Part shown: piece after piece, positions 38,698 to 55,050 of the stretch
Position numbering within the stretch: position 1 is the first letter of the stretch
Layout: each line of letters starts with the position of its first letter
DNA from: Lysobacter changpingensis
GTDB taxonomy: Bacteria; Pseudomonadota; Gammaproteobacteria; Xanthomonadales; Xanthomonadaceae
Direction: 5' to 3'
Assembly (NCBI RefSeq): GCF_017308985.1
Contig: NZ_JADWPE010000003.1
Location: 1 to 64,000, forward strand
DNA length: 64,000 bases
The notes under the pieces: model-generated
What the model saw: the letters and a program-made list of their open reading frames with translations, nothing else
The model's database searches: none
Told to the model about the DNA's origin: nothing
Made by a program: the position numbers and the translations under genes

Positions 38698-39603
38698 TCA
38701 GCGACGCGGCGCGGCATCGGGGTCGCCGGCGAAACGCGGCTCGCGCAGGCCTTTGAGGCCGGGCTCGAACGCGAACACGTCGCCGGCATGGCGATCGATG
38801 GAGCGCGCAACGTCGGTCAGGCCGTCGTGCGCACTGGTGACGTACAGCGTGGACAGTGCCGGGCCGCCGAACGCGGGGCGCGTGGGCTGCACGGTGGGCA
38901 TCGCGACGACGCGATCCTCCACGCCATCGGTGCGATAGCGCACGACGCGCGACGCGCCCCATTGCGCGTTCCACACGCCGCCTTCGCGGTCGACGCACGA
39001 GCCGTCGGGCTCGCCGCCTTCCAGCGCGGTGAGATCGACGAAGGTCGAGACGCTGCCGACCTCATCGCCATACTCGCAGCGCAGGATCTTCTTCTGCAGC
39101 GAATCGCAGAAGTACATCGTGGCGCCGTCGGGACTGAAGGCGACCGAGTTGGCGATGGCGACGCGCGGCAGCGGCAACTCGTGCAGCTGAAGGTCCGCGT
39201 CGAGTCGCAGGAACGTACCGACCGCCTGTTTCGGCCCCTGCGCGGGTTCGTGCAAGGTGCCGAAGACGAAACGTCCCTGGCGGTCGCAGGCGCCGTCGTT
39301 CGCGCGCGTGTCCGGTGCGATGGGAAGCGTGCGGATGTCGCGGACCTCGCCGCTGACCGTATTGAAGAACGCAAGCCGCGAGGCCAGTGCGAGCAGCAGC
39401 CAGCCATCGGCGACGCACAACGCGAACGACGCCAGGCGCTCCGGCATCGGCCAGCTGCGCACCGTCCCGTCGGCGGGCACGTAGCGCCACAGCATCGAGG
39501 CGTGGATGTCGGTCCAGTACAGCGCCTGCGCGCGGTCGCACCACACGACGCCTTCGCCGAGCCGGTTGCCCGCCTGCACCGCGACGCGGACGCCGCTGTT
39601 CAA
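38698..39603 (-). CDS. SMP-30/gluconolactonase family sugar lactonase
   Basis: A 301-residue six-bladed propeller lactonase. The metal site residues of the SMP-30 family are visible: Glu in NRLGEGVVW, Asn in TRANDGACDRQGRFVFGT and Asp in VAFSPDGATMYFCDS. The start is TTG 39603, overlapping the stop of the dehydrogenase gene (TTGA), with a GGAGG six bases upstream, so translation is coupled. In this operon it would hydrolyse galactono-1,4-lactone made by the dehydrogenase to galactonate. Confidence 0.9.
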   Translation of the reverse strand: MNSGVRVAVQAGNRLGEGVVWCDRAQALYWTDIHASMLWRYVPADGTVRSWPMPERLASFALCVADGWLLLALASRLAFFNTVSGEVRDIRTLPIAPDTRANDGACDRQGRFVFGTLHEPAQGPKQAVGTFLRLDADLQLHELPLPRVAIANSVAFSPDGATMYFCDSLQKKILRCEYGDEVGSVSTFVDLTALEGGEPDGSCVDREGGVWNAQWGASRVVRYRTDGVEDRVVAMPTVQPTRPAFGGPALSTLYVTSAHDGLTDVARSIDRHAGDVFAFEPGLKGLREPRFAGDPDAAPRR

Positions 39604-40361
39604 ACCCAGCCTCCGTCGACGATGAAGTCCTGGCCGGTGCACATGCGGCTGTCGTCGGCGGCGAGGAACAGCGCCATGCGCGCCAGGTCCTCCGCCTTCA
39701 GATGGCCCGGCAGGCACTGCGAACGCGCGATCTGCGCCTCGCCTTCGGCGTCGAGCCACAGGCGCTGCTGCTTCTCGGTGATCACCCAGCCCGGCACGAG
39801 CGCGTTGATGCGGATGCGGTCGCGGCCGAGTTCGCGCGCCAGTCCGTTCACCAGTCCGTGCACGGCGGATTTCGCCATCGCGTACATCGGGTAGCCCGCG
39901 TTCTTGATCATCCAGCCGGTCGAGCCCAGGCAGATCACCGAGCCGCCGCCGAGCGCGCGCATGTCGTCCACGACCGCCTGCGTCGCGAAGTACTGATGGC
40001 GCAGGTTCACGGCGATGTTGCGTTCGAAGTCCGCCGGCGTGGTGCTGCCGAAGGCGTGGCGCACGTCGTTCGCCGCGTTGTTGACCAGCACGCCGATGCG
40101 GCCGATGCGTTCGCGCGCGTGCGTGATCGCGCCGTGCAGCGCGTCGAGGTCGGTGACGTCGCAGCGCAGGTACACGGGCGCGTGTTCGACGTCCGCCAAC
40201 GCATCGATCAGTGCGCGCGCGCCTTCATCGTCGATGTCGAGGAAGGCGACGCGTGCGCCCTGTCGCGCGAAATGCTCGACGAAGCCCGCGCCGATGCCGG
40301 TTGCGCCGCCGGTGATCAGGACCGCGCGGCCCGCGAGGCTGGGGTAGGTCGCCATCGTCAT
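39600..40361 (-). CDS. SDR-family sugar (probably D-galactose) 1-dehydrogenase
   Basis: A 253-residue short-chain dehydrogenase: cofactor motif TGGATGIG (17-24), acidic residue in FLDIDDEGA favouring NAD+, NNAAND, catalytic Ser in CLGSTGWM, and the YxxxK pair in MYAMAKSAVHGL, ending in GQDFIVDGGWV. Sandwiched between dgoD and the lactonase it is well placed to oxidise galactose to galactonolactone; L-arabinose or fucose could also be accepted. ATG 40361 (GGAG 11 bases upstream) is chosen; GTG 40370 overlaps the dgoD stop. Confidence 0.9.
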   Translation of the reverse strand: MTMATYPSLAGRAVLITGGATGIGAGFVEHFARQGARVAFLDIDDEGARALIDALADVEHAPVYLRCDVTDLDALHGAITHARERIGRIGVLVNNAANDVRHAFGSTTPADFERNIAVNLRHQYFATQAVVDDMRALGGGSVICLGSTGWMIKNAGYPMYAMAKSAVHGLVNGLARELGRDRIRINALVPGWVITEKQQRLWLDAEGEAQIARSQCLPGHLKAEDLARMALFLAADDSRMCTGQDFIVDGGWV

Positions 40362-40366
40362 GGTGC

Positions 40367-41515
40367 TCACCACTCCGCCACGCTGCCGTCGGCGTGGCGC
40401 CAGATCGGATTGCGCCAGCGGTGGCCTTCGGCGGCGCGTTCGTTCACGTAGTCCTGGTTGATCTCGATGCCCAGGCCCGGGCCCTGCGGGATCGCGACGT
40501 AGCCGCCTTCGTAGGCGAACGGCGCGCGATCGGTGAGGTAATCGAGCAGGTCGTTGTTCGCGTTGTAATGGATGCCCAGGCTCTGTTCCTGGATGAAAGC
40601 GTTGTAGCAGACCGCATCCAGCTGCAGGTTCGCGGCCAGCGCGATCGGACCCAGCGGGCAGTGCAGCGCGAGCGCGACGTCGAAGGCTTCGGCCATCGCG
40701 GCGATCTTGCGGGTTTCGGTGATGCCGCCCGAATGCGAGGGATCGGGCTGGATGATGTCCACGCCGCCGGTCTGCAGCACGCGCTTGAAGTCGTACCGCG
40801 AATACAGCCGCTCGCCCAGCGCAATCGGGGCAGGGGAGAGCGCTGCGAGTTCCGGGATGCATTCCAGGTGTTCGGACAGTACCGGCTCCTCGATGAACAT
40901 CAGGCCGAACGGCGCCAGTTCGCGCATCAGGACCTTCGCCATCGGCTTGTGCACGCGGCCGTGGAAATCCACCGCGAGGCCGACTTCGCGGCCGACGGCA
41001 TCGCGCACGGCCTGCACGTTTTCAAGCACGCGCGAGACCTTCTCGTGCGTGTCGACGAACTGCACTTCCTCGGTGGCGTTCATCTTGACCGCGCTGAAGC
41101 CGCGCGCGACGGCGTCCTTCGCGGCGCGTGCGGTTTCGGCGGGACGGTCGCCGCCGATCCACGAATACACGCGGATGCGATCGCGCACCTGGCCGCCGAG
41201 CAACGCGTGCACCGGCACGCCGAGCGCCTTTCCGTGGATGTCCCACAGCGCCTGGTCGATGCCGGCCAGGGCGCTCATCAGGATCGGGCCGCCGCGGTAG
41301 AAACCGCCGCGGTACATGACGTTCCAGTGGTCCTCGATGAAACGCGGGTCCTTGCCGATCAGGTAATCGGACAGCTCGTCCACGGCGGCGGCGACGGTGT
41401 GCGCGCGACCTTCGACGATGGGCTCTCCCCAGCCGGTAATGCCGGCGTCGGTGTCGATGCGCACGAAACACCAGCGCGGCGGCACGAGGAAAGTGGTGAT
41501 GGCGGTGATCTTCAT
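40367..41515 (-). CDS. dgoD: D-galactonate dehydratase
   Basis: A 382-residue enolase-superfamily enzyme, exactly the length of E. coli DgoD and colinear with it: start MKITAITTFLVPPRW, GFYRGGPILMSALAGIDQAL, VDFHGRVHKPMAKVLMREL, FIEEPVLSEHLE, DIIQPDPSHSGGITE, HCPLGPIALAANLQLD and ending RWRNPIWRHADGSVAEW. Metal ligands Asp (VDFHG), Glu (IEEPV) and Glu (ALGERL) and the catalytic histidines are kept. It turns D-galactonate into 2-dehydro-3-deoxy-galactonate. It lies 32 bases after dgoA. Confidence 0.97.
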   Translation of the reverse strand: MKITAITTFLVPPRWCFVRIDTDAGITGWGEPIVEGRAHTVAAAVDELSDYLIGKDPRFIEDHWNVMYRGGFYRGGPILMSALAGIDQALWDIHGKALGVPVHALLGGQVRDRIRVYSWIGGDRPAETARAAKDAVARGFSAVKMNATEEVQFVDTHEKVSRVLENVQAVRDAVGREVGLAVDFHGRVHKPMAKVLMRELAPFGLMFIEEPVLSEHLECIPELAALSPAPIALGERLYSRYDFKRVLQTGGVDIIQPDPSHSGGITETRKIAAMAEAFDVALALHCPLGPIALAANLQLDAVCYNAFIQEQSLGIHYNANNDLLDYLTDRAPFAYEGGYVAIPQGPGLGIEINQDYVNERAAEGHRWRNPIWRHADGSVAEW

Positions 41516-41547: not shown

Positions 41548-42174
41548 TCAGGTGCGGTTGATGGAATTCCAGCCATCGACGAAGGCGCGTGCGCGACGCG
41601 CGACTTCGTTCGCGTCGATGCCCGGCGAATACAGCGCCGAGCCGATGCCGAAGCCGGCCGCGCCGGCCTTGCGGTAGGGCGCCATGTTGTCGGGCGTGAT
41701 GCCGCCCACGGGCAGCAGCGCGGTGCCCTTGGGCAGCACGCTCGACCATGCCTTCAACACGGAGGGCGGGAGTTGTTCGGCGGGAAAAAGCTTCAGCGCA
41801 TCGGCGCCCGCGGCGAGCGCGGCGAAAGCTTCGGTCGGCGTCGCCACGCCCGGGGTGCAGACCATGCCGGCGACCTTCGCGGCGCGGACCACGGTCGTGT
41901 CGCCGTGCGGCATGACGATGAGTTTTCCGCCGGCGTCCTTCACCTGCGACACCTGGTCGGGCGTGAGCACGGTGCCGGCGCCGACGAGGGCGCGGTCGCC
42001 GAACTCGCGCGCGAGCAACGCGATGCTCTCCAGCGGCTGCGGCGAGTTGAGCGGAACTTCGAGTGCGCGGAAACCGGCGTCGAACAGCGCGGTTCCCACC
42101 GGCAACGCGTCCTGCGGGGTGAGCCCCCGCAGGATCGCAACCAGGGGAAGGGGTTGCAGCCAGGCGGTGCTCAT
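41548..42174 (-). CDS. dgoA: 2-dehydro-3-deoxy-6-phosphogalactonate aldolase
   Basis: A 208-residue KDPG/KDPGal-type class I aldolase: PLVAILRGLTPQDALPVGTA, EVPLNSPQPLESI (the PLNSP motif is typical of the galactonate branch), GAGTVLTPDQV and the Schiff-base lysine in ALKLFPAEQ. It splits the phosphorylated keto acid into pyruvate and glyceraldehyde-3-phosphate. ATG 42174 is preferred to GTG 42180. It follows the GntR gene by 37 bases and precedes dgoD in the same operon. Confidence 0.94.
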   Translation of the reverse strand: MSTAWLQPLPLVAILRGLTPQDALPVGTALFDAGFRALEVPLNSPQPLESIALLAREFGDRALVGAGTVLTPDQVSQVKDAGGKLIVMPHGDTTVVRAAKVAGMVCTPGVATPTEAFAALAAGADALKLFPAEQLPPSVLKAWSSVLPKGTALLPVGGITPDNMAPYRKAGAAGFGIGSALYSPGIDANEVARRARAFVDGWNSINRT

Positions 42175-42211
42175 GCGCACTCCGTCGATGTGTGGGGTTG
42201 CGTGTCCCGGG

Positions 42212-42928
42212 CTAGCGAGCCGTCTTGCGCGCGCGCCCTCGTCGTTTGATGTTCGCGCGCGAGTCCACGATCATGCCGTGCATCGCCTCGCGCGCGGATT
42301 CGGGCCGTTTCAGCCGGATCGCGTCGTACACCGCGAAATGCCGCGGCAGCGAATACTTGAAATCCACCGCGGTCTTCGCCGACAGCAGGAAGTACGCGCC
42401 CAGCGCCGTGTCGATCACCGAGAACAGCGAGCCCATCAGCTCGTTGTTGGCCGCGTCGAGCACGCACTCGTGGAATTCCAGGTCGGCCTTCGCCCAGGCG
42501 TCGAGATCCTGCGCCGCCGCCATCGCCTCGTACGCGGCCTTGATGCGCGCCAGCTGCTCCGGCGTGCGCTTGCGCGCCGCCGCGGCTGCGGCAGCCGGTT
42601 CGATGATCTCGCGCATCTCCACCAGCTTCTCGACGAAGTCCTCCGTCGGCATCGACGCGCAGCGCCACGCCAGGATGTCCGCGTCGAGCTGGTTCCAGTA
42701 GCGCGTGTCGCGCACGCGCGAGCCGGTTTTCTGCCTGGTCTCGATCAAGCCCTTGGAACCGAGCACCTTCAGCGCCTCGCGCAGTGCCGTGCGGCTGACT
42801 GCCATGCGCTGCGCCAGCGCTTCCTCGCGCGGCAGCAGTTCGCCCGGCTTGATCTCGCCGCTCACGATCATCCGGCCGATTTCCTGGATGACCTGGTTGT
42901 GCAGGTTCCGTACCGCGATCTGTCTCAC
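42212..42928 (-). CDS. dgoR: GntR/FadR-family regulator (DgoR-like)
   Basis: A 238-residue repressor: winged helix (IQEIGRMIVSGEIKPGELLP, AVSRTALREALKVLGSKGLI) and an all-helical FCD effector domain with metal-ligand histidines and acidic residues (DLEFHECVLDAANN, PRHFAVYDAI). The region RYWNQLDADILAWR and the EIIEPAAAAAAA helix are like E. coli DgoR. GTG 42928 is preferred because GGAGGGGG lies five bases upstream. It is the first gene of the galactonate operon, with a 19-bp near-palindrome 33 bases before its start that recurs at two other promoters of this region. Effector probably galactonate (inference). Confidence 0.92.
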   Translation of the reverse strand: MRQIAVRNLHNQVIQEIGRMIVSGEIKPGELLPREEALAQRMAVSRTALREALKVLGSKGLIETRQKTGSRVRDTRYWNQLDADILAWRCASMPTEDFVEKLVEMREIIEPAAAAAAARKRTPEQLARIKAAYEAMAAAQDLDAWAKADLEFHECVLDAANNELMGSLFSVIDTALGAYFLLSAKTAVDFKYSLPRHFAVYDAIRLKRPESAREAMHGMIVDSRANIKRRGRARKTAR

Positions 42929-42960: not shown

Positions 42961-42979
42961 CCTATTATCCGACAATAGG
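42961..42979. promoter_or_regulatory. Putative GntR operator, site 1
   Basis: CCTATTATCCGACAATAGG is a 19-bp palindrome with a single mismatched pair, 33 bases upstream of the regulator gene. Closely matching sites lie at 49911-49929 and 51145-51163 (shared core ATC-N-GACAAT). Confidence 0.65.
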
Positions 42980-43018
42980 GGTATAGCATGAGTTCGGTTG
43001 CACGTACCGCTTCGAGGT

Positions 43019-44596
43019 TCATGGCGACACCGGCCCGCCGATCGCGAGGTAGTCGTAATCCAGCGGGCGTTCCGGGTTCGACACGACGATGCGGTTGTGC
43101 CCGGCCTTGAGCGGCGCGGTGAACCGCGCCTCGCGCCAGCCTTCGGCGCTGGTGGGCTCGACGCCGCCGGCCGCCGCATCGCCGTTGACGCGCAGTCGCG
43201 GCGCGGCGGCGAAACCGATGTCGGCGAAGCGCACGGTGATCTCGCGCGGGCCGGCCTCGCCGACGACCACGTCGAAGGCCAGCGCCGCATCCGGGCCGCT
43301 GGCCAGGCGTACCTTGCGATAGGCCGACGCGTCCACGTTGTCGATCTGCGCGCCGCCGCGACGCACGGCGTCTTCGGCTTCATAGCGGTTGAGCGCGAGT
43401 GGCGCCGACGCGAACAGGATCTCGTTGGTCTCGTCGGGCGCGGGTGCGTTCGCGGTGGAGGACGAGGTGACGTGCAACAGCGTTCCGTCGTCGCGCGGAA
43501 TCATCGCCTGCGTCCAGCCCGCGTGGATGTTGCCCGTGCGCTTGCGCACCGGCGCGCCGGCTTCCCACCACGGGCCGCGACCGCCGTCGGCGTTCCAGTA
43601 GAACGTGCGTCCGCCTGCGTCGCCGCCACCGCCGGCGCGTTGCGCGGCGACGACGATCACGCCGTCGGGCGTTTCGCCCGGCAACCAGCGGATGGTCGGG
43701 CAGGCGGACGGATACGCGCCGGACGCGGTCTGGATCGGCGTGCCGCGATCGCCCGCGTCGCCCCAGTCCAGCCCGTCGCGGCTGAACTTGATGTGCACCT
43801 GGCCGTTGCGTGCGCCGCCGGTGTTGTCGATGTTCTCGTAGACCATCGCGTAGCCGCGGCCGGGAATGCGTTCGACGATCGCCATGCCCGGACGCTCCAC
43901 GCCGCCCGGAAGCGCGACGTCGAAGACTTCCTTGCCCCAGGTGCGTCCGCCGTCGGTCGACACCCGATGCGCGAGCAACTGGTTGAAGCCCTGTGCCTTG
44001 TGCTGTTCGGTCGAGTAGAAGACCACCATGCGGCCGTCGTCGAGCACAACGATGTACGGCTCCCACACGCCCTTGTTCAAGCGGTCCGAGGGCTGGCCGC
44101 CACCCTTCACGATGCTGCTGCGATACGTCCACGTCTTGCCGCCGTCGCGGCTGGCGTAGAGCTGCAGGTCCTGGTCGGTGATGCGCTCGTCGCCGTCGCG
44201 ACGGATCGCGTTCGCCGCCAGCAGCAGCGTGCCTGCGGGAAGATCGCCGCTGCTGCGCGCCAGTTCGCTCAGGTGCGGCTGCCAGCGCAGGGCCCAGGAG
44301 CGGTCGCCGCGATGCGCCGTTTCGTCGACCGAGCCGATGCGCTTGAAACTGTCGCCATCGTCGCGGCTTTCGAACAGCGGCACGTTGCCCGGACCGGACG
44401 GCTCGTACACCAGCAGCAGGCGGCCGTTGTCGTCGGCGTTCGACTGGTGCGCGAGCTTCACCGCCGACGCATAACCGATGCCCGGCGCGAGCTTCTGCCC
44501 GACCACGTCATCCGGCGCGTCGGCCATCGCCGCGCCCGTGCACAGCAGCACGGACGCGGCGAGCAGAGCCAGCGCGGGGGAGGGCGCGCGTCGCAT
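43019..44596 (-). CDS. Secreted sialidase-fold glycan-active protein with C-terminal CBM-like domain
   Basis: A 525-residue protein: signal peptide (about 1-24), a six-bladed propeller with Asp-box motifs (ESRDDGDSFKRI, ASRDGGKTWTYR, VSTDGGRTWGKE) to about residue 385, and a C-terminal jelly-roll module starting NRYEAEDAVRRGG, the start typical of CBM35/CBM6 galactan- or uronate-binding domains. The propeller conserves RPGMAIVERIPGRGYAMVYE. Its ATG overlaps the TonB-receptor stop (TGATG). Context suggests an exo-acting enzyme on the imported glycan; true sialidase activity is unlikely. Confidence 0.85.
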   Translation of the reverse strand: MRRAPSPALALLAASVLLCTGAAMADAPDDVVGQKLAPGIGYASAVKLAHQSNADDNGRLLLVYEPSGPGNVPLFESRDDGDSFKRIGSVDETAHRGDRSWALRWQPHLSELARSSGDLPAGTLLLAANAIRRDGDERITDQDLQLYASRDGGKTWTYRSSIVKGGGQPSDRLNKGVWEPYIVVLDDGRMVVFYSTEQHKAQGFNQLLAHRVSTDGGRTWGKEVFDVALPGGVERPGMAIVERIPGRGYAMVYENIDNTGGARNGQVHIKFSRDGLDWGDAGDRGTPIQTASGAYPSACPTIRWLPGETPDGVIVVAAQRAGGGGDAGGRTFYWNADGGRGPWWEAGAPVRKRTGNIHAGWTQAMIPRDDGTLLHVTSSSTANAPAPDETNEILFASAPLALNRYEAEDAVRRGGAQIDNVDASAYRKVRLASGPDAALAFDVVVGEAGPREITVRFADIGFAAAPRLRVNGDAAAGGVEPTSAEGWREARFTAPLKAGHNRIVVSNPERPLDYDYLAIGGPVSP

Positions 44597-47352
44597 CACA
44601 GCTTGAACCGGTAGCCCAGGCCGATGGTGCGGTCCTGGAAGCGGATGTCGCGCGGACGCGTGTCGCCATCGCCCCAGAACTGGTGCAGGTTGTTGCCCAG
44701 CAGGTTGGTCGCCGAGAGGATGACCGTCTGGCGCGGCGTCACGTCGTAGCTGACCGAGAAGTCCAGCGAGCTGGCCGGTTCGACCTGGTCTTCGTTGCCG
44801 GCCACGGTGGGCTGGGTGAAGAAGTCGATGTAGCGGCTGCGGTAACCGTAGGCCAGGCGCGCCGAGATGCCGAAGTTCTCGTAGAACAGCACCGCGTTGT
44901 AGTTGTTCTTCGACACGTTCTGCAGCGGCTGTTCGATTTCCGGGCCGCCGATGAAGGCCGGCGAACGCGTCGAACCGTCGATGTAGGTGTAGTTGAACTG
45001 CGCGCCCAGGCCGCTCCACGCGCCGGGCAGGAAGTCGAAGGTCTGCTGCCAGGCGAACTCGACGCCCTGCAGGTGGCCGCTGCCGGCGCTCTGCGGGGAC
45101 GACAGTTCGAAGTCCTCGCCGCCGATGACGACGTTGGTGACGTAGTTCTGGATGTAGCCGTCGATGTCGCGATAGAACAGGCCCAGGCTGGTGTAGCCCA
45201 CCGGCGAGAAGTACCACTCCAGCGACGCGTCGTAGTTCATCGACTCGATCGGCGTCAGGTCCGGGTTGCCGGACGAGGCGATGCCGGCGCGGTTGATCGT
45301 GCCCGGGTTGAGCGAGATCGACGGATTGAGCGCGCCGAAATCCGGATAGCTCAGCGTCTTCGCCGCGACCAGTCGAAGCTGCCACTCATCGTTGAAGTGC
45401 AGGTTCATGCTGGCGTTGGGCAGCGTGTTGGTGTCCTTGGTGTTGCGCGAGATCGGACTGTAGACGCCGGTGGAGGCATCGAAGGAGAACGCGTTGAGGT
45501 CGCGCTCCACGCGCTCCACGCGCACGCCGACCAGGCCGTCGACGCGCAGGCCGAACATCTCGGTGTCGTACTTCGCCTGCAGGTAGCCGGCGAGCTTTTC
45601 CTCGCCGATGTCGAAGAAGCGGCCGGGGTTTTCCGCCGCCAGGCCCGGGTCCAGGCCGTACAGCTGGCGCAGGTAGTCGGCGCTGTCGATCAGCGTGTCG
45701 TAGCACGGCGTCAGCCAGCTCTGGTGCAGGGCGTCGTTGCCGCGCTTGCTGCAGAAGAAGTCCATGCCCGGCAGGCGCGCGATGACCTGGTTGTCCGGGT
45801 TCGGATTGGCCGTGATGTTGCCGGTGCCGGCGCCGCCCGGCGGCGGCGTGGAGATCTCGACGGAGCCCTTCGCCTGCGCGCTGCGGTCGGCGTAGCGCAG
45901 GCCGAACTGCAGCGACGCGATCGGACCTTCGATGAAGTCGAAACGGCCGTCGCCGCGCCAGGCGTTCTCCTCGCCGTACGAATAGCCCCAGGTCTGGAAC
46001 AGGCCGTTGAGGTAGAAGCGCGAGGGATCCAGCGCCGGATCGCCCTGCAGGTACCAGTTCTGGTGGCGGCCGGAGGTGCCTTCCCAGACGGTGGTGATCG
46101 GACCGGAGAGGAAGGTGTCGATGATGAAGTTCTCGTCGCGGTAGTAACCCGACGTGCGCGAGAACTCGGTGGACAGGTGCAGCTGGTCGCCATCCCACTT
46201 CACGCCGAGCGCGTTCTGGATGTCCTGCCCGCGCTGCTTGTGCGCCTGCGTGCTGGTCGCGGCGTACGTGTCGCCGGTCCACACGCCGTTGGAGGCATCG
46301 CAGATGGTCTGCCCGGCCAGCGGGCCGTCGAGCTGGTTCGGATAGCAGTGGCCGGTCACGCCGAGCTGCGACGGCGTCACCACGCCGACCGGGAAGGTGA
46401 AGTAGAACGCGTTGGAATAGCTGTCGCGCACCCAGTCGTACAGGCCTTCCAGGTAGATCTCGGTGTCCTCGCGCGGCTTCCACTGCAACGCGTAGTTGAA
46501 TGCGCCGCGCTCGCGGTAGCCGTCGTTGTAGGAGGTGCCCCAGCCGTTGGGCGCAGCGATCAGGTTGCCGTCGGCGGTGCGGATCGGCTCGCCCGTGCCG
46601 TCGGTGACGACCTTCGGGAAATCGCCCCACACCGCGTCGTACGCGTATTCCTTCGCCTGGTAGCCGAAGTTGACCAGCGCGCCGAACTCGCCGGCGTCGG
46701 TGTCCCAGCGATCGCTGAGCATCAGGCTCGCGTTCGGATCGACGCTGCCGCCGTACTCGCTGTGGGTGGCGGTATAGGTGCCGGCGATCTCGCGGCCATC
46801 GAAATCGAACGGACGGCGCAGCTGGATGTCCACAAGACCGGCAATGCCGCCGAGAGGGAGGGAGGCCTCGGATGTCTTGTACACGCTGAGCGTCCTGACC
46901 GCGGTCGCCGGCAGGTTCTGGAATGCGAAGCCACGGCCGGAGCTGGAGAAGATCTCGCGGCCGTTGAGCGTGGTGATGACGTTGGGCAGGCCGCGGATCA
47001 CGACGTTCGTGGTCTCGCCCTGGTTGCCCTGCGCGATCTGCACGCCGGTGACGCGCTGCAAAGCGTCGGCGACGCTGTTGTCGGGCAGCTTGCCGATGTC
47101 CTCGGCGACGATCGAATCCACGACCATGGCCGCGTCCTGCTTGAGGGCCTGCGCGGTTTCCAGGCTCTGGCGCAGCGCGGTCACCGTGACGGTGTCCAGT
47201 TGGGTCGCTTCCTGCGACGAGGCCGGTTGCGCCTGCTGGGCGGTGGCGTCGGCGGCGCCGGTGGTGGCGTCCTGCGCGTGCGCCAGCGGCGGCAGCACCA
47301 GCGCGGACAGGATCGACAGCGACAGCAGCGAACGTGGGAAGCGGCGGTTCAT
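44596..47352 (-). CDS. TonB-dependent receptor of the carbohydrate-uptake type
   Basis: A 918-residue outer-membrane receptor: signal peptide (about 1-27), a TonB box region (TQLDTVTVTALRQSLETAQA), plug domain (DSIVAEDIGKLPDNSVADAL, GVQIAQGNQGETTNVVIRGL) and a 22-strand barrel ending FQDRTIGLGYRFKL. The LPDNSVADALQRVTGVQI wording is the form of Xanthomonas carbohydrate (CUT) receptors rather than siderophore receptors. Gene neighbours (glycosidases on both sides) support import of oligosaccharides. ATG 47352 is set by the signal peptide. Confidence 0.94.
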   Translation of the reverse strand: MNRRFPRSLLSLSILSALVLPPLAHAQDATTGAADATAQQAQPASSQEATQLDTVTVTALRQSLETAQALKQDAAMVVDSIVAEDIGKLPDNSVADALQRVTGVQIAQGNQGETTNVVIRGLPNVITTLNGREIFSSSGRGFAFQNLPATAVRTLSVYKTSEASLPLGGIAGLVDIQLRRPFDFDGREIAGTYTATHSEYGGSVDPNASLMLSDRWDTDAGEFGALVNFGYQAKEYAYDAVWGDFPKVVTDGTGEPIRTADGNLIAAPNGWGTSYNDGYRERGAFNYALQWKPREDTEIYLEGLYDWVRDSYSNAFYFTFPVGVVTPSQLGVTGHCYPNQLDGPLAGQTICDASNGVWTGDTYAATSTQAHKQRGQDIQNALGVKWDGDQLHLSTEFSRTSGYYRDENFIIDTFLSGPITTVWEGTSGRHQNWYLQGDPALDPSRFYLNGLFQTWGYSYGEENAWRGDGRFDFIEGPIASLQFGLRYADRSAQAKGSVEISTPPPGGAGTGNITANPNPDNQVIARLPGMDFFCSKRGNDALHQSWLTPCYDTLIDSADYLRQLYGLDPGLAAENPGRFFDIGEEKLAGYLQAKYDTEMFGLRVDGLVGVRVERVERDLNAFSFDASTGVYSPISRNTKDTNTLPNASMNLHFNDEWQLRLVAAKTLSYPDFGALNPSISLNPGTINRAGIASSGNPDLTPIESMNYDASLEWYFSPVGYTSLGLFYRDIDGYIQNYVTNVVIGGEDFELSSPQSAGSGHLQGVEFAWQQTFDFLPGAWSGLGAQFNYTYIDGSTRSPAFIGGPEIEQPLQNVSKNNYNAVLFYENFGISARLAYGYRSRYIDFFTQPTVAGNEDQVEPASSLDFSVSYDVTPRQTVILSATNLLGNNLHQFWGDGDTRPRDIRFQDRTIGLGYRFKL

Positions 47353-47418
47353 GGGATCGTCTCCGGACGAATGGCGTGGGTGTCCGCGGCGGCCACGGGG
47401 CCGCGCGCGGATCACGGA

Positions 47419-48585
47419 TCAGAGGGCGGGAACTTCGTTCTTCGGGGCGCGGGTGAGGGCGCGGATGATCTCGATCTCGCGCGCGCGATACGGCTTTCCA
47501 TCGCCATGCAGCAGATCGTGGAACCACAGCGTCGGCGGCTTCTGCGTGTACGGACGCTCCCACGAATCCCACGGGAAGCGCGTCTGCGTCTTGCCGTCGA
47601 CGAAGCCCCAGTTGTACATGCCGACGTTGAGCTTCTTCGCCACCGGCAGCACGCCGTCGATGGTCGAACCGGCGCCGCGCGCGAGGTATTCGGTGCACAG
47701 CAGCGGCCGGCCGTAGACCTGCAGCTCCTGCACGCGCTGGGCGAAATCCTCCGGCCAAGCGTAGGTGTGGAACGAGATGACGTCGGACAGCTCGATCTGC
47801 GCCTTCTCGACGCGGTTCAGGCCTTCGAGCTTGTTCCAGTCGGGGTTGTGCCACAGGCCGCTGGTGAGCGGCTGGGTCGGCTTCTGCGTGCGGGCCCAGG
47901 CGAAGGCCTTCGGCAGCAACTCGGCGACGCGGTCGAACTTGTGCTTGCTTTCGCGCGGCTGGTAGTAGCCGCTGCCGCCGCCTTCGTTGTCCGGCTCGTT
48001 CCAGATGTCCCAGGCGAGCACGCGATCGTCCTTGGCGAAGCTGCCGACGATGTCCTTCACGTACGCCTCAAGGCGCGCGTGCTGCTTCGGATCGTCCAGC
48101 GCGGCCGTGCCCGGACCCTGCACCCAGCCGGAGTTGTGCACGCCGGGAATCGGCGGACGCTGCGGGCCGAGCTTCGGATCCGGGTCCCAGCACGAGTCGA
48201 ACAGCACCAGCATCGGCTTGATGCCGTGCTTCGCGGAAATCTGCAGGAAGGTTTCGAGGCGGCGCTTGAAGCCCTTCGGGTCCTGGTGCCAGGCCATGTC
48301 GTGCAGGAACACGCGCATGGTGTTCATGCCCATGTCCTGCGCCCAGCCCAGTTCCAGGTCGATGCGCTTGGGATCGAACGTGTCGGCCTGCCACATCTCC
48401 AGCTGGTTGATTGCGTTGGCGGGGATGTAGTTGCTGCCGACCAGCCACGGCTGCTTCGCGTACCAGGCGTTCGCTTCGGCCTGCGACCAGCGTTCGCCGT
48501 CGGCCGCATGCGCGAGGGGCGCGCCCGCCAGTACGACGGCAGCCAGCACCAGCGAGGCGAATCGTTGCGGTAGCCATTTCAACAT
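47419..48585 (-). CDS. Secreted clan GH-A glycoside hydrolase (GH5-like)
   Basis: A 388-residue enzyme with a signal peptide (1-27, ending APLAHA). The TIM-barrel carries the acid/base Glu197 in LAWDIWNEPDN and the nucleophile Glu299 in RPLLCTEYLARG, with SFHTYAWPED between them. This matches cellulase-type clan GH-A proteins often labelled 1,4-beta-xylanase. In this locus a beta-galactan or arabinogalactan backbone is the more likely target (inference). AAGGAG nine bases upstream fixes ATG 48585. Next gene downstream is the TonB receptor. Confidence 0.88.
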   Translation of the reverse strand: MLKWLPQRFASLVLAAVVLAGAPLAHAADGERWSQAEANAWYAKQPWLVGSNYIPANAINQLEMWQADTFDPKRIDLELGWAQDMGMNTMRVFLHDMAWHQDPKGFKRRLETFLQISAKHGIKPMLVLFDSCWDPDPKLGPQRPPIPGVHNSGWVQGPGTAALDDPKQHARLEAYVKDIVGSFAKDDRVLAWDIWNEPDNEGGGSGYYQPRESKHKFDRVAELLPKAFAWARTQKPTQPLTSGLWHNPDWNKLEGLNRVEKAQIELSDVISFHTYAWPEDFAQRVQELQVYGRPLLCTEYLARGAGSTIDGVLPVAKKLNVGMYNWGFVDGKTQTRFPWDSWERPYTQKPPTLWFHDLLHGDGKPYRAREIEIIRALTRAPKNEVPAL

Positions 48586-48609
48586 CGGGAGCATCTCCTT
48601 TCTGCGTAT

Positions 48610-48637
48610 GCGTTCTGCGTTCTGCGTTCTGCGTTCT
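48610..48637. repeat. Four tandem GCGTTCT heptamers
   Basis: Four exact copies of GCGTTCT lie 24 bases upstream of the GH5-like gene, within the 128-base gap after the epimerase gene. Variable numbers of this heptamer are common between genes in xanthomonads and could vary by slippage. Confidence 0.8.
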
Positions 48638-48713
48638 GACGGGCATGCCTCCGGCATCCACGACGGCCGTGGCCGTCGCGTGGCAGGTGGCAATGGACCG
48701 CGTGGGGGCCGGT

Positions 48714-49859
48714 TTACGGCTTCGCGCGGGCGCCCTGATCGGTGGTGAAGCGGTAGACCATGCGGTTCACGTACTGCTTGCCCGGAACAAGCCGCGCCGA
48801 ACCGAAGGACGGCTGGTTCGGCGTGTCGGGGAACAACTGCGGTTCGAGCACGAAGGCATCGCCCTGGCGATACACCTGGCCGCGCTTGCCGACCGTGGTG
48901 CCGTCGAGGAAGTTGCCGGAATAGAACTGCAATCCGGGCTGCGCGGACGACAGCGTCATCACGCGGCCGGAGCGCGGGTCGTGCACGCGCGCGACCTCAC
49001 GCGGCTGCTTCGCGATGCTGCGGCTGACGACCCAGTTGTGGTCGTAGCCACGGCCGCGCAGCAACTGCGGTTCCGAACCGGTGCGAAGGTCGCGGCCGAT
49101 CGGCTTGGCGGTGCGGAAATCGAACACGGTGCCCGCGACCGGCACGACTTCGCCGGTGGGGATGAGCGTCTCGTCGACCGGCGTGTACGCATCGGCGGCG
49201 ATGGTGAGTTCGTGGTCCATCGCCGTGCCCGAACCTTCGCCGGAGAGGTTCCAGTACGCGTGGTTGCTCAGGTTGACGATGGTCGGCGCGTCGGTGGTCG
49301 CGCGGTACTCGATGGCGAGCGTGCCGTCGCCTTCGAGCGCGTAGCTCGCGGTGACGGTGAGCTTGCCGGGATAGCCCTGGTCGCCGTCCGGGCTGACGTA
49401 GCGCAGCGTGGCGCGATCGGGCTTCGCCTCGACCACCTCCCACACCACCTTGTCGAAGCCGCGCGTGCCGCCGTGCAGGGTGTTGGGGCCGTCGTTGGTC
49501 GGAATGGCGTACTGCTTGCCGTCGAGCGTGAACCTGCCCTTGGCGATGCGGTTGGCGAAGCGGCCGACGATCGTGCCGAAGTACTGCGGCTTGGCGAGCG
49601 TGGCGTCGAGCGTGGCGTCGGCCAGGATGACGTCGGCGTACTTGCCGTCGCGATCGGGCACCTGCAACGCGTGCAGCGCGGCGCCGAGCGTCCACAGTTG
49701 CGCCTGCATGCCGCTGCCGTCGCGCAGCGTGATCGATTCGACCTTCGTTCCGTCCGGCAGCGTGCCGACGACGGTGCGTTCCTGGGCGCCTGCGGCACCC
49801 GTCGCCGCGAGCGCCAGCGCGCCCATGCACCAACCCGCGATCCCCTTGCGAAGCCCCAT
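48714..49859 (-). CDS. galM: Periplasmic aldose 1-epimerase
   Basis: A 381-residue galactose mutarotase with a signal peptide (to about residue 27, ending ATGAAGA). The catalytic features are visible: FANRIAKGRFTLDGKQY, NTLHGGTRGFDKVVW (substrate-binding His), LSNHAYWNLSGEG (acid His) and FVLEPQLFPDTPNQPSF (base Glu). It interconverts alpha and beta galactose before transport or oxidation. A 19-bp GntR-type site lies 52 bases upstream, and the GH5, TonB receptor and sialidase-fold genes follow on the same strand. Confidence 0.93.
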   Translation of the reverse strand: MGLRKGIAGWCMGALALAATGAAGAQERTVVGTLPDGTKVESITLRDGSGMQAQLWTLGAALHALQVPDRDGKYADVILADATLDATLAKPQYFGTIVGRFANRIAKGRFTLDGKQYAIPTNDGPNTLHGGTRGFDKVVWEVVEAKPDRATLRYVSPDGDQGYPGKLTVTASYALEGDGTLAIEYRATTDAPTIVNLSNHAYWNLSGEGSGTAMDHELTIAADAYTPVDETLIPTGEVVPVAGTVFDFRTAKPIGRDLRTGSEPQLLRGRGYDHNWVVSRSIAKQPREVARVHDPRSGRVMTLSSAQPGLQFYSGNFLDGTTVGKRGQVYRQGDAFVLEPQLFPDTPNQPSFGSARLVPGKQYVNRMVYRFTTDQGARAKP

Positions 49860-49910
49860 CACTCTCGACCCTCCCGAACACGGCCCTTGGCAGCGTGGGA
49901 CAGACAAAAA

Positions 49911-49929
49911 CATATAATCAGACAATATG
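49911..49929. promoter_or_regulatory. Putative GntR operator, site 2
   Basis: CATATAATCAGACAATATG, 19 bp with two mismatched pairs, 52 bases upstream of the aldose epimerase gene. It shares 14 of 19 positions with site 1 and 16 of 19 with site 3 when read in the same sense. Confidence 0.65.
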
Positions 49930-50059
49930 CACGTTGCGCCGCAACACGGTGAGGGCAGCAATCGCACAGGTTGCGGTGAAGAATCTGGCAAGAAGCGCAA
50001 ACCATGTGCGCCAACGGGCGAAAGCAGCGGCGCCGGATCACCAGGCTCGTCCAGCCTTT

Positions 50060-50128
50060 GTAGCCCGGGTAAGCGCAGCGCACCCGGGGCGCGGCAAGCC
50101 TTCCGGGTCGCTGCGCTCACCCGGCTAC
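50060..50128. repeat. Long inverted repeat of the TAGCCCGGGTAAGCG family
   Basis: GTAGCCCGGGTAAGCGCAGC pairs with CGCTGCGCTCACCCGGCTAC at the other end, forming a long hairpin 27 bases past the dgoK stop. A second member lies at 61675-61770. This is a common dispersed repeat of xanthomonads and could act as a terminator. Confidence 0.75.
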
Positions 50129-50154
50129 GAGAGCAACGCGTGCGTGATGGCGGA

Positions 50155-51078
50155 TCAGCGAGCGCGAACCCGCGCATCGATCTCCACGAACCCGCGCGCG
50201 ATCGCATCGGCCGACGCCACGGTGCGCGACGTCAGTCCCAGTTCCTCCAGCGCCGCCGCGTACAGCGCGCACACGGCGGGCGAGCCCACCAGGGGGATCG
50301 CGACGTCGTCGCGGCGTGGAAACAGCGCCAGCGCATCCGCGATCTCGGAGCCGATCAACAATCCGCGCAGGTACGCGCTGGCGTCCGCCTTCGGGAGCAT
50401 TCCGCGAATCACCCGCGCACGCGCGCCGAAGAGCAGCGCGCCGAGCCCCAGGGTGCGCGACGCACTCGTGCGAACGCCGTCGCGGAAGGCGTGGCCATCG
50501 CGGCCAGCGCCTTCGACGATCGACGCGAGCAGGCCCGCGGCGGTGAGCCGGTCGTAGACCTCGCCCGACATCGCGGTCATGAACTCGACCACGCGACCGT
50601 CCGCGATCGCGACCCACTTGGTGTGCGTGCCCGGCAGCGCGACCAGGGGCGCATCGCCGAGCCGGCCGCTGGCGTGCAGGCCGAGCAGTTCGGTTTCCTC
50701 GCCGCGCATGACGTCCGGCGCGCCGTCGCGTTCGCGCACGCAGGCGAGTCCGGGGACGATGTGCAGCGCGAGTTCGCCGATGCGCGTGGGCACGAGGCGT
50801 TCGCACAGGCGCTCGATTCCGGCGGGGCAGTCGGCGTAGCCGGCGTCGGTCCAGCCGACGTTCGAACCGATCATTCCGGCGGCGTACACGCGGGTGGCGT
50901 GCGGCCATCGCGCGCGGACGCGGTCGGCCATCCCGACCATGCCGTCGCGTTGCAGCGAGGCCACGCCGGCGGGCGCTTCCAGCGAATCGAGCACCAAGCC
51001 GTCGGGCGCGATGAGGTGGGCGCGGAAATTCGAACTGCCCCAGTTGATGCCTACGATGGCGTCGGAGGTTTCGCTCAT
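50155..51078 (-). CDS. dgoK: 2-dehydro-3-deoxygalactonokinase
   Basis: A 307-residue sugar kinase of the DgoK family: ATP-site start IVGINWGSSNFRAHLIAPDG, GMIGSNVGWTDAGYADCPAG (the DgoK signature), ALPGTHTKWVAIADGRVVEF MTAMSGEVYD and a C-terminal helical end. It phosphorylates 2-dehydro-3-deoxygalactonate before cleavage by DgoA. It is split from the main operon by about 7 kb but shares the 19-bp operator type (51145-51163) with it. ATG 51078 begins the conserved domain. Confidence 0.95.
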   Translation of the reverse strand: MSETSDAIVGINWGSSNFRAHLIAPDGLVLDSLEAPAGVASLQRDGMVGMADRVRARWPHATRVYAAGMIGSNVGWTDAGYADCPAGIERLCERLVPTRIGELALHIVPGLACVRERDGAPDVMRGEETELLGLHASGRLGDAPLVALPGTHTKWVAIADGRVVEFMTAMSGEVYDRLTAAGLLASIVEGAGRDGHAFRDGVRTSASRTLGLGALLFGARARVIRGMLPKADASAYLRGLLIGSEIADALALFPRRDDVAIPLVGSPAVCALYAAALEELGLTSRTVASADAIARGFVEIDARVRAR

Positions 51079-51144
51079 GGCGTTGGAAGACCGGATGCAG
51101 GCCGCGCGTGCGGCGGGAATGTGCGGCACCTGTCCGGCGCCTTG

Positions 51145-51163
51145 CGAATTGTCCGATTATATG
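51145..51163. promoter_or_regulatory. Putative GntR operator, site 3 (divergent dgoK / GH43 region)
   Basis: CGAATTGTCCGATTATATG (reverse CATATAATCGGACAATTCG), 67 bases before dgoK and 122 before the GH43 gene. On the dgoK strand it contains TATAAT, so repressor binding would cover a -10 element. Confidence 0.65.
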
Positions 51164-51284: not shown

Positions 51285-52295
51285 ATGACCCGATGCCGGG
51301 GGCTCCTGTCCGTCACGTTGATGCTGTGTCTCGCCGGAGCCGCGAACGCGGCCGGGCAGGGCACGTTCGAGAATCCGCTGCTGCCGTCCGGGCCCGATCC
51401 GTGGATCGTGCGCGACGGCGCGACCTACTACTACATGGCCACGCGTGGCGACCGGCTCACGATCCGCAAGACCTCGGACCTCACGCGCCTGGCCGACGCG
51501 CCGGAAACCACCGTGTGGACGCCGCCGGCGAGCGGGCCGAACGCGCAGTCGATCTGGGCGCCGGAACTGCATCGCATCGACGGCAAGTGGTACCTGTACT
51601 ACACCGCCGCCGCGAGCGGCCACGACGACGACGCGCATCGCGGCGTGTTCGTGCTGGAGAACGCGGGCGCGGATCCGACGCAGGGCGAATGGATCGATCG
51701 CGGCCAGCTGAAGACCGAACACACCGGCATCGACGGCACCACGTTCGTGCACGAAGGCAAACGCTATTTCGTGTATTCGCCGTACGTGGGACCCGACAGC
51801 GTGCTGTCGATCGTCGCGATGGCGAATCCGTGGACGCTCAGCGGCAAGGAAACGATCATCGCGCGCCCCGACCAGGCGTGGGAGCGCCAGGGCGGGCGGC
51901 AGATCCTCGAGGGACCGGAGTTCCTCAAGGGCCCCAACGGCGATCTGTTCCTGACGTATTCCGGCAGCGCGTGCTGGTCGGACGATTACGCCATCGGCCT
52001 GCTGCGCGCCGCGCCCGGACGCGATCCGCTGGATGCGTCGTCGTGGACGAAGGTCCCCGGCCCGGTGCTGGCGAAGGATGCGGAACGCAGCGTCTACGCG
52101 CCCGGCCACAACGGCTTCTTCGAAGCGGCCGACGGCACGACGTGGATCGTCTACCACGCCAATCCAGGCCCCGACATGAAGTGCACGGCGAAGCGCTCGC
52201 CGCGCATGCAGCCGGTGCGCTGGACGAAGGACGGGCAGCCGGAGTTCGGCAGGCCGGCGGGGAAGGGCGTGAAGTTGAAGGCGCCGGGCGGCTGA
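51285..52295 (+). CDS. Secreted GH43 glycoside hydrolase (arabinanase/arabinofuranosidase-like)
   Basis: A 336-residue five-bladed propeller enzyme with a signal peptide (1-23). The three GH43 acidic residues are visible: base Asp38 in LLPSGPDPWIV, Asp150 in HTGIDGTTFVHEGKRYFVYS and acid Glu209 in QILEGPEFLKG. The pattern resembles GH43 members releasing arabinose from arabinan or arabinogalactan side chains. AAGGAGAAGG precedes ATG 51285. It is divergent from dgoK across the third operator copy, linking arabinose side-chain removal to galactose use. Confidence 0.92.
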   Translation: MTRCRGLLSVTLMLCLAGAANAAGQGTFENPLLPSGPDPWIVRDGATYYYMATRGDRLTIRKTSDLTRLADAPETTVWTPPASGPNAQSIWAPELHRIDGKWYLYYTAAASGHDDDAHRGVFVLENAGADPTQGEWIDRGQLKTEHTGIDGTTFVHEGKRYFVYSPYVGPDSVLSIVAMANPWTLSGKETIIARPDQAWERQGGRQILEGPEFLKGPNGDLFLTYSGSACWSDDYAIGLLRAAPGRDPLDASSWTKVPGPVLAKDAERSVYAPGHNGFFEAADGTTWIVYHANPGPDMKCTAKRSPRMQPVRWTKDGQPEFGRPAGKGVKLKAPGG

Positions 52296-52397: not shown

Positions 52398-52514
52398 CGC
52401 ATTTAATAATGAACAGGCAGGGACCTCTCTGATTGCGCGAAGGCCGTCGATGTGACTGGCGTCAGCGAACGCGGGGTTCGCCCCACATTCCCGTTCGCAT
52501 CCAGACACCCCCAC

Positions 52515-54686
52515 ATGCCTTCTTCCGGTTCCGCACGCTCGTCCTTCGCCGTTTCCCATCGGCAACGCCCCGTTTCGCCCAACCGACTGGGCCTGGCGAT
52601 CTGTTTCGCGCTGCTCGGCGTCCCGCACGCCGCACTGGCGGCCGATGCGTCCGCCGACAGCGCCACCGACCTCGACGCGGTTCTCGTCGTCGCCCAGCGC
52701 GCGCAGCGCGTCAGCAACGGCGCGACCAACCTCGACCTGGACATCAAGGACACGCCGCAGTCGATCAGCGTGGTGGACAACGTGCAGATGCAGCAGTTCG
52801 GCACGGACAGCCTCAACGAGGCGCTGCGCCTGGCCACCGGCATCCAGGTGGACGAGTGGGAGACCAACCGCACGACCTTCACCTCGCGCGGCTTCGACAT
52901 CGAGAACACCCAGATCGACGGCGTCGGCCTGCCCAACGACTGGGGCATCGTCACCGGCGCGATGGACATGGCCGGCTACGAGAAGCTGGAAGTCATCCGC
53001 GGCGCCAACGGCCTGCTGACCGGCGTGGGCAACGCGGCCGGCACCATCAACTACGTGCGCAAGCGTCCAACCAACGACAGCCGCGGCTCGCTCGGCCTCG
53101 GCTACGGGTCATGGGACACGCTGCGCGCGGAAGTCGACTATTCCACGCCGTTCACCGCCGACGGCACCTGGGCCGGGCGCGTGGTGGCCGCGCACGAGCA
53201 GGGCGATTCCTACCTTCGCGGCAAGGAAGACCAGCGCGATTTCGTCTACGGCGTGGTCGACGGCCAGGTCGGCGAGAACGGCACGCTGACGTTCGGCTAT
53301 TCGTGGCAGGAGGCGCGCACCGACGGCAACATGTGGGGCGCGCTGACCTTCATGTACAACGATGGCACGCAGGCCGAGTGGAGCCGCAGCGCGTCGACCA
53401 CGCAGGACTGGACGTACTGGGACACGACCAACCAGAACGCGTTCGTCGAGTACGTGCACCAGCTCGGCATGGACTGGCAGCTGAAGCTGTCGTACGACTA
53501 CCGCCGGAGCGAGAACGACGACAGGCTCTTCTACGCCACCGACTACCAGGGCACCGGCCTGGAGCCGGGCACCAACCTGGGCCTGTACGGTTATCCATGG
53601 GGCGGCGACGATGAAATGACCTCGCACCTGGGCACGGCCACCGTCAACGGCCGCTTCCCGATGTGGGGCCGCGAGCACGAGGCGATGTTCGGCCTGGGCT
53701 GGGCGAAGAGCGAAGCGACCAACCGCGAATTCGCCAACGCCGTTTACGACAGCGATCTGTTCGGCTACATCGTCATGCCGGCGTTCCCGTGGGGCGGCGA
53801 CGTGATCCCGGAGCCGGAGTGGGGCGAAAGCTCGGTCTACAGCGTGCTCGACCAGCGCGTGAAGCGCGCGTTCGGCGCGATGCGGCTGGCGCTCACCGAC
53901 CGCTTCAAGGCGGTGCTGGGCTTCAACTACGCGCAGTACCATCGCGACGGCATCAACTACGGCGTCGTGTTCGACCAGACCGAAGGGCACACCAGCCCGT
54001 ACGCCGGCCTGACGTTCGATTTCAACGAGCACGTGCTCGGCTACGTCAGCTATTCGGACATCTACCACCCGCAGAGCCAGTCCGACCAGGACGGCCGCTT
54101 CCTGGACCCGACCAAGGGCACCAACTACGAGCTGGGCGTGAAGGCCGACTGGCTCGACAAGCGCCTGCTCACGACCTTCGCCGTGTTCCAGGCGAAGCAG
54201 GACAACCTCGCCACCGGCGCCGGCTACAACCAGCACGGCCAGTACTACTACACGGGCGTGGACGTCGAATCCAAGGGCGTCGAGTTCGAAGTCACCGGCC
54301 GCCTCACCGATCACGTGGACCTGGTGTTTGGCGCCACCGCGCTGAAGCTGACCGGCCAGGACGGCGACGACACCTACCGCTGGGTGCCGCGTCGCACCGC
54401 GAACCTGCTGCTGACCGCGCGCGTGCCCGGTTACACGGCGTTGTCGTACGGCATCGGCGGGCGCTGGCAAAGCGACATCTCGAACGTGGAAAGCAACGGC
54501 TTCACCGTTCGCCAGGACAGCTACGCGGTGCTCAACGGCTTCGTGGCGTGGGACTTCGTGCCCAACGCGACGCTGCGGCTCAACGTCAACAACCTGACCG
54601 ACGAGAAGTACATCAATACGCTGCGCTACAGTGGCTTCTACGGTGCGCCGGCCAACTACATGCTGAGCCTGAACTGGCGGTTCTGA
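52515..54686 (+). CDS. TonB-dependent siderophore receptor
   Basis: A 723-residue receptor: signal peptide (about 1-43), TonB box region (DLDAVLVVAQRA), plug (DIKDTPQSISVVDNVQMQQF, GFDIENTQIDGVGL) and barrel ending NLTDEKYINTLRYSGFYGAP ... YMLSLNWRF. The ferric-siderophore class (FhuE/FpvA-like) is indicated by TPQSISV, EVIRGANGLLTGVGNAAGTI and the C-terminal NNLTDEKY motif. The Fur box upstream and the PepSY/DUF3649/DUF3325 genes downstream place it in an iron-starvation operon. The exact siderophore is not readable. Confidence 0.95.
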   Translation: MPSSGSARSSFAVSHRQRPVSPNRLGLAICFALLGVPHAALAADASADSATDLDAVLVVAQRAQRVSNGATNLDLDIKDTPQSISVVDNVQMQQFGTDSLNEALRLATGIQVDEWETNRTTFTSRGFDIENTQIDGVGLPNDWGIVTGAMDMAGYEKLEVIRGANGLLTGVGNAAGTINYVRKRPTNDSRGSLGLGYGSWDTLRAEVDYSTPFTADGTWAGRVVAAHEQGDSYLRGKEDQRDFVYGVVDGQVGENGTLTFGYSWQEARTDGNMWGALTFMYNDGTQAEWSRSASTTQDWTYWDTTNQNAFVEYVHQLGMDWQLKLSYDYRRSENDDRLFYATDYQGTGLEPGTNLGLYGYPWGGDDEMTSHLGTATVNGRFPMWGREHEAMFGLGWAKSEATNREFANAVYDSDLFGYIVMPAFPWGGDVIPEPEWGESSVYSVLDQRVKRAFGAMRLALTDRFKAVLGFNYAQYHRDGINYGVVFDQTEGHTSPYAGLTFDFNEHVLGYVSYSDIYHPQSQSDQDGRFLDPTKGTNYELGVKADWLDKRLLTTFAVFQAKQDNLATGAGYNQHGQYYYTGVDVESKGVEFEVTGRLTDHVDLVFGATALKLTGQDGDDTYRWVPRRTANLLLTARVPGYTALSYGIGGRWQSDISNVESNGFTVRQDSYAVLNGFVAWDFVPNATLRLNVNNLTDEKYINTLRYSGFYGAPANYMLSLNWRF

Positions 54687-54722
54687 CCGCCGCCACCCGT
54701 AACGCAAGGACCGCCAGACGCC

Positions 54723-55037
54723 ATGTCCAGCACGATCGCCCGCTCTTTCATCACCGCGCACCGCCTGCGCACCGCATCGCGCGTGGGCGCGGCGGTGCTG
54801 GGCGGCTACGGCTTCGCCTGGGGCGTGGTGGCGCTCACCACCTGCCTGCTGTTCGCGGCGGGACTCGGCTTCCACGACGCGGAATTCCTCGGCGCCCTTA
54901 CGGGCCTGCTGGCGTACCTGGTCGTGTTCCTGTGGGCCATCGCCGCGCGACGGCTGGCGGTGGTGTGGGCGGTGCTCGCGGGCAGCGGTGCGCTGATGAC
55001 CGGCGCGGCGTCGCTGCTGCAGTCGTTGCTGGCCTGA
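54723..55037 (+). CDS. DUF3649 membrane protein
   Basis: A 104-residue protein with three membrane segments (about 22-48, 54-77, 82-102) and the start TAHRLRTASRVGAAVLGGYG, typical of DUF3649 proteins that accompany siderophore receptors and PepSY proteins. It lies 36 bases after the receptor and 13 bases before the PepSY gene, so it belongs to the same operon. Its role is unknown but likely in siderophore reduction or iron release at the inner membrane. Confidence 0.88.
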   Translation: MSSTIARSFITAHRLRTASRVGAAVLGGYGFAWGVVALTTCLLFAAGLGFHDAEFLGALTGLLAYLVVFLWAIAARRLAVVWAVLAGSGALMTGAASLLQSLLA

Positions 55038-55050
55038 GGAGGGCTCGATC

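Follow-up and report, generated by a model that had tools for sequence, protein, structure and literature searches.

In the galactose locus of Lysobacter changpingensis, three copies of a short motif very probably serve as operators for the neighboring DgoR-like GntR/FCD repressor, which, judged from the sequence, would jointly control galactose breakdown and the uptake of plant polysaccharides. The locus was analyzed within a window of 64,000 nucleotides, the term used here for the whole stretch of DNA under study. The local GntR regulon that an earlier note on this DNA had proposed is upheld as a prediction by four properties of the sites, which are confined to the locus, are kept together with the regulator in relatives, have the form of a FadR-type operator, and persist despite changes in gene order. 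The genes of the locus were assigned as follows.

37107-38666, minus strand: SSF sodium:solute symporter (Pfam).
38698-39561, minus strand: lactonase of the SMP-30/gluconolactonase family (Pfam SGL; start approximate).
39600-40358, minus strand: SDR dehydrogenase, probable D-galactose dehydrogenase (start approximate).
40367-41515, minus strand: dgoD, galactonate dehydratase (NCBIfam NF010624, 675.7 bits, cut-off 311).
41548-42180, minus strand: dgoA, 2-dehydro-3-deoxy-6-phosphogalactonate aldolase (Pfam; NCBIfam NF006600 over cut-off).
42212-42928, minus strand: gntR, DgoR-like FCD-domain regulator of 238 aa from GTG (Pfam GntR and FCD; the open reading frame reaches ATG 42949).
43019-44590, minus strand: BNR protein, exo-arabinanase-like (3a71 exo-arabinanase, E 7.1e-33; start approximate), which we take to be a GH93 enzyme.
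44596-47415, minus strand: TonB-dependent receptor of the TonB-Xanth-Caul type (Pfam; NCBIfam TIGR01782, 624.9 bits, cut-off 310).
47419-48693, minus strand: glycoside hydrolase with weak GH5/GH10 matches (solved-structure matches weak too).
48714-49859, minus strand: galM, aldose 1-epimerase (domain and family models).
50155-51078, minus strand: dgoK, 2-keto-3-deoxy-galactonokinase (Pfam DGOK).
51285-52295, plus strand: GH43 glycoside hydrolase (Pfam; best solved match 3akf).

As far as these family assignments indicate, the gene set would combine the De Ley-Doudoroff galactose pathway with the capture and cleavage of a polymer at the outer membrane. The best model for the SDR dehydrogenase is D-xylose 1-dehydrogenase, with a score under the cut-off of that model. 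Arabinan or arabinogalactan side chains are one likely polymer, since the BNR protein resembles exo-arabinanases and since, for the GH43 protein, the closest match of solved structure was deposited as a putative secreted arabinofuranosidase. The placement of the sites upstream of galactose genes in the earlier note was borne out, with the refinement that not all of these genes concern galactose, the BNR and GH43 proteins pointing to arabinan or arabinogalactan. Two further features adjoin the locus. A second BNR-repeat open frame on the minus strand, at about 36500-37000 of the window, lies next to the SSF transporter and may belong to its transcription unit; BNR-like matches are present at the equivalent place in several relatives. 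Downstream of GH43, a TonB receptor and, after it, a PepSY-TM protein (window 52452-56718) probably serve iron uptake and lie outside the regulon.

The window regulator consists of an N-terminal GntR winged helix-turn-helix domain (PF00392, 2.2e-18) and a C-terminal FCD domain (PF07729, 2.7e-25), both over cut-off, and none of the 25 NCBIfam models listed for it reaches its cut-off. It is 32% identical to Escherichia coli DgoR over 223 aligned positions, and the search of solved structures returned 7c7e with an E value of 7.3e-38, the next hit being at 8.9e-19; 7c7e is E. coli DgoR, because its residues agree with the E. coli gene. By these comparisons, the closest characterized relative of the window regulator is DgoR, and its gene adjoins dgoA, dgoD, and dgoK, the neighborhood expected of a DgoR.

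The 19-mers described in the earlier note were all located in the window sequence at the coordinates and on the strands claimed there, as listed below.

42961-42979, minus strand: putative operator site 1, upstream of gntR (core 42964-42976, ATTGTCGGATAAT on the minus strand).
49911-49929, minus strand: putative operator site 2, upstream of galM (core 49914-49926, ATTGTCTGATTAT on the minus strand).
51145-51163, plus strand: putative operator site 3, in the divergent dgoK/GH43 gap (core 51148-51160, ATTGTCCGATTAT on the plus strand).

The core common to all three is ATTGTCNGATWAT, and site 1 as a whole is a near-perfect 19-bp palindrome. The site 1 core lies 35 nt from the gntR start (GTG 42928), the site 2 core 54 nt from the galM start (ATG 49859), and the site 3 core 69 nt from the dgoK start (ATG 51078) and 124 nt from the GH43 start (ATG 51285). 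When the center of each site was compared with the operator form GT-N3-AC, one half read AT, not AC, at all three.

An inverted repeat, GTTGCGSCGCAAC, is found directly upstream of site 2 (window 49930-49948), with a similar form in the relatives aligned and altered letters in loci L080, L081, and L085. It may be a hairpin of the terminator type following dgoK, or else a second site for protein binding. A scan of the three regions for terminators gave a single weak hairpin of this type, located upstream of site 2. As a candidate second operator the repeat was rejected: it has one exact place in the genome, and with up to one mismatch allowed it gives 48 strand-hits, compared with 126 for the reversed control, which leaves no grounds for proposing a separate regulon.

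A consensus typed from the three sites matched the window three times, compared with a mean of 0.00 in 100 shuffles, in a test that is partly circular because the pattern was derived from the sites. The 13-mer ATTGTCNGAYAAT with up to two mismatches gave six strand-hits in the window, all at the three places, compared with a shuffled mean of 2.00; at this looseness the window alone is not decisive, because 6 of the 100 shuffles also reach six hits. Over the genome of 4,059,994 bases, ATTGTCNGAYAAT with up to one mismatch occurs at the three places only, all within 8.2 kb, and ATTGTCNGATWAT with up to one mismatch has three matches, all of them exact, against one for the control. Allowing two mismatches in ATTGTCNGAYAAT raised the count to 35 strand-hits versus 20 for the reversed control; a two-mismatch site inside a long open frame (G000:C2:32064) was dropped. 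At up to one mismatch, then, the candidate operators of this genome stand at promoters of pathway genes and are not scattered. The earlier note had considered chance agreement unlikely and had suggested a genome scan, in which hundreds of random occurrences would have counted against it; no such numbers were seen, and the agreement among the three sites goes far beyond chance.

Conservation of the sites in relatives, another check that had been suggested, was assessed in 80 loci (the best 80 of 130) obtained with the regulator alignment. Some genomes give several loci (paralogues, e.g., L100, L102, and L121), so not every one of the 80 is a strict orthologue. Among them, a set that may exclude records of the window's own genome, the best-matching named organism is Lysobacter soli (96%). 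All three sites are kept along with the regulator in 14 named Lysobacteraceae loci (L078-L088, L090, L091, and L093), while of the other loci among the 18 labelled with Lysobacteraceae genera L089, L134, and L143 are without a site and L145 has one variant site. Locus L081 carries a fourth site, upstream of dgoK, and the 14 loci, this extra site, and the window together hold 46 Lysobacteraceae sites. The criteria for selecting them were no more than one mismatch to ATTGTCNGATWAT and a GT at positions 4-5. These criteria in part impose the uniformity of the set, although they would have let a single GAC through. The sites outlast rearrangement of the locus. In L080, L081, and L085 the GH5-like gene has been relocated and sites still precede galM and gntR; the tblastn hit for the moved gene has a site 429-497 nt upstream, possibly with an intervening gene. 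In L085, dgoA, dgoD, and dgoK are also missing nearby.

Compared pair by pair, the 13-bp cores of sites 1, 2, and 3 have mean identities of 0.96, 0.97, and 0.93, respectively, and the values fall to 0.37, 0.29, and 0.28 at 20-60 nt upstream and to 0.57, 0.37, and 0.41 at 20-60 nt downstream. The flanks are fairly conserved too, with identities of 0.46-0.80 in the 20 nt on either side of the core; by conservation the core window ranks second, second, and first of 121. These profiles comprise 13, 13, and 10 rows: two near-copies, L083 (of L082) and L088 (of L087), were omitted at all three sites, and L080, L081, and L085 at site 3, as their third site precedes another gene.

Exact ATTGTCNGATWAT sites and the regulator orthologue were also sought in 149 family genomes. 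Each of the six genomes with a close orthologue (at least 86% identity) has exactly three exact sites (6/6), compared with 12 sites in total in the remaining 143, and the reversed pattern scored 0 in every row. Four of these genomes appear to be the sources of named loci (L078, L079, L082, and L083 corresponding to G148, G045, G091, and G016), and the 14-locus and six-genome counts thus overlap and are not independent. Altogether, an exact site is present in 16 genomes, the ten without a close orthologue holding the 12 sites. G078, G129, G063, and G139 have, at the thresholds applied, neither the close orthologue nor dgoD, galM, or an exact site. G117, which has no close orthologue, has a 59% dgoD match only, and G145, with matches of 59% to the regulator, 57% to dgoD, and 44% to galM, has no site either exactly or at one mismatch. 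The locus is mostly gained or lost as a whole, and therefore patterns of co-occurrence do not distinguish the regulator from the other genes around it. In the 12 genomes covered by the one-mismatch ATTGTCNGATWAT search, the close relatives G045, G105, G148, G016, and G091 have one or two extra one-mismatch sites elsewhere in the genome, two of them common to G016 and G091.

Several sites were recorded in genomes lacking a close orthologue. In genus g7, four of the five genomes searched (G006, G085, G111, and G134; not G058) have one exact site each, in every case inside GGACAAAATTGTCCGATAAT and near a possible start codon (L062, L063, L064, and L065, position 1501); these genomes lack the close orthologue, the sites were taken as unrelated, and GGACAAAATTGTCCGATAAT is possibly an operator of another regulator. 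Three of the 12 sites are in G080, a genome 86% complete, on three small contigs (L052, L066, and L072), and a regulator match is absent among the matches listed for it. In G117, the symmetric sequence ATTGTCCGACAAT is present.

The common gain and loss of regulator and locus means that presence and absence do not name the protein that binds, and a transcription factor other than the adjacent GntR protein could in principle occupy the sites. We consider this highly improbable, given that the motif is of the FadR-subfamily type described in the available text of PMC4494728, that no FCD-domain protein other than the adjacent one was found in the genome, and that a site lies ahead of the regulator's own gene in all 14 three-site relatives. 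The type of site upstream of gntR also clusters on the regulator tree, a clustering that near-copies favor.

In the wider set of 80 loci, WTTGTNNGAYWAW occurs at 84 places, compared with 2 places when the pattern is reversed. In the 420 nt preceding gntR, TTGTNNNACAA has 26 exact and 32 one-mismatch hits, compared with 0.18 and 5.18 expected from shuffles of unchanged base composition; both kinds of hit are missing there from 24 of the 80 loci. The symmetric FadR-subfamily operator TTGT-N3-ACAA precedes the homologous regulator in 26 of the 80 loci, all Rhodanobacteraceae by label, and many Rhodanobacteraceae loci have the gene order gntR-dgoK-dgoA-dgoD, as in E. coli. Ten Dyella/Frateuria/Fulvimonas loci contain, in addition to the symmetric gntR site, a ATTGTATGATTAT site, which in eight of the ten is adjoined by a galM hit. 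Outside the order, Rhodoferax bucti (L146; regulator 48% identical) has the symmetric TTTGTATGACAAA at 10714-10726, with gntR on one side and a galactose-dehydrogenase-like hit on the other. In the remaining relatives from beyond the order (L147-L157) no such site is present, but L148 and L154 show a one-mismatch TTGTNNNACAA.

All 46 Lysobacteraceae sites, the regulator's own included, have GAT in place of GAC in one half and thus the asymmetric form ATTGTC-N-GATWAT. The 15 regulators with a GATWAT half in their own upstream site make up one clade (support 100/99), and the GAT half is not confined to this clade, because it is present at galM in Dyella-type loci as well. In the helix-turn-helix domain, regulators with asymmetric gntR sites have Q47 and G64-S65, versus mostly E and mostly S/A-A in those with symmetric ones. 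The GATWAT half faces gntR, galM, GH43, or the GH5-like gene in 45 of the 46 sites; the exception is the extra site of L081, where it points away from dgoK, and in the galM sites of Dyella-type loci it likewise points away from galM.

This arrangement, the resemblance of GATWAT to TATAAT, and a TATAAT readable on the opposite strand at sites 2 and 3 would all suit a conserved promoter element with a -10 box in its GATWAT part rather than an operator. A general promoter element, however, should recur throughout the genome, and the motif occurs only at this locus; the half faces away from the gene in the extra L081 site and the Dyella-type galM sites, the symmetric site of Dyella/Frateuria-type loci comes after a separate TATAGT sequence, and the promoter scan recognized no sigma-70-type -35/-10 pair at any of the three sites. 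We therefore regard a promoter element in place of an operator as extremely improbable. With the sites read as operators that turned asymmetric at every promoter in the Lysobacteraceae clade, the degenerate half might have a second job as core promoter, with repressor and polymerase competing for it, or might be a graded weak half that sets promoter-specific thresholds; we put this forward tentatively and think it rather doubtful. This reading is weakened by the GAT half of the Dyella-type galM sites and by the one site of 46 that faces the other way. Symmetric and asymmetric operators, found here alongside regulators that are related to one another, make up a natural series for studying operator drift.

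In the model that we infer for binding, repression, effector, and how far each transcription unit runs, the regulator would act as a dimer on ATTGT-CNG-ATWAT, an operator of the FadR subfamily in which one half is degenerate. During growth without galactose, the repressor would block its own putative unit gntR-dgoA-dgoD-dehydrogenase-lactonase-SSF (autoregulation), the putative unit galM-hydrolase-TonB receptor-GH93, and the divergent dgoK and GH43 promoters. Upon breakdown of plant galactan or arabinogalactan, galactonate or a later De Ley-Doudoroff acid may bind the FCD domain, and the effector-bound dimer would leave the DNA, so that polymer cleavage, uptake, and catabolism are switched on together. 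The sign of regulation does not follow from the sequence, and the regulator might instead activate the locus; this is very improbable, as enteric sugar-acid GntR/FadR regulators including DgoR are usually repressors, with repression lifted by the effector, according to the available text of PMC12288454, and as the start codons lie close to the sites. A single repressor thus appears to couple the capture and cleavage of an arabinogalactan-type polymer to oxidative galactose catabolism in Lysobacteraceae. The switch is well supported but of an ordinary bacterial kind. DgoR regulons are already known and are here extended to polymer-degrading genes; a literature search outside subscription journals and RegPrecise returned no title or abstract on such a regulon in Lysobacteraceae.

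FadR-subfamily regulators, an operator class within which DgoR is named, bind palindromes with TKGT/ACMA boxes and 3 nt between GT and AC (PMC4494728, in the portion available). The Lysobacteraceae sites differ by having AT for AC on one side. In E. coli, DgoR represses through repeats that overlap the dgo promoter and responds to D-galactonate; its repeat IR1, which overlaps this promoter, contains TTGTAGTACAA with a 3-nt center (available text of PMC12288454). The operator centers of Rhodanobacter loci, AGT or ATT, resemble IR1, in contrast to the window operators with their CNG center and one degenerate half. The window shares with the E. coli dgo locus a GntR/FCD regulator with dgoK, dgoA, and dgoD beside it. 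It differs in that the E. coli regulator acts, in the same portion of PMC12288454, on one operon with two closely spaced repeats, compared with three promoters with one site each in the window, and in that the annotated neighbors of E. coli dgo include no polysaccharide genes, whereas a TonB receptor and glycoside hydrolases belong to the window locus. For Halomonas, the accessible part of PMC5507952 names no TonB receptor or polymer-degrading enzyme in the predicted DgoR regulons, unlike the window, and apparently names a D-xylose-type enzyme as the candidate galactose dehydrogenase. In their De Ley-Doudoroff genes, the lactonase DgoL, and an SSS-family transporter that is co-regulated and was predicted to carry galactose, the Halomonas regulons described there are like the predicted regulon of the window.
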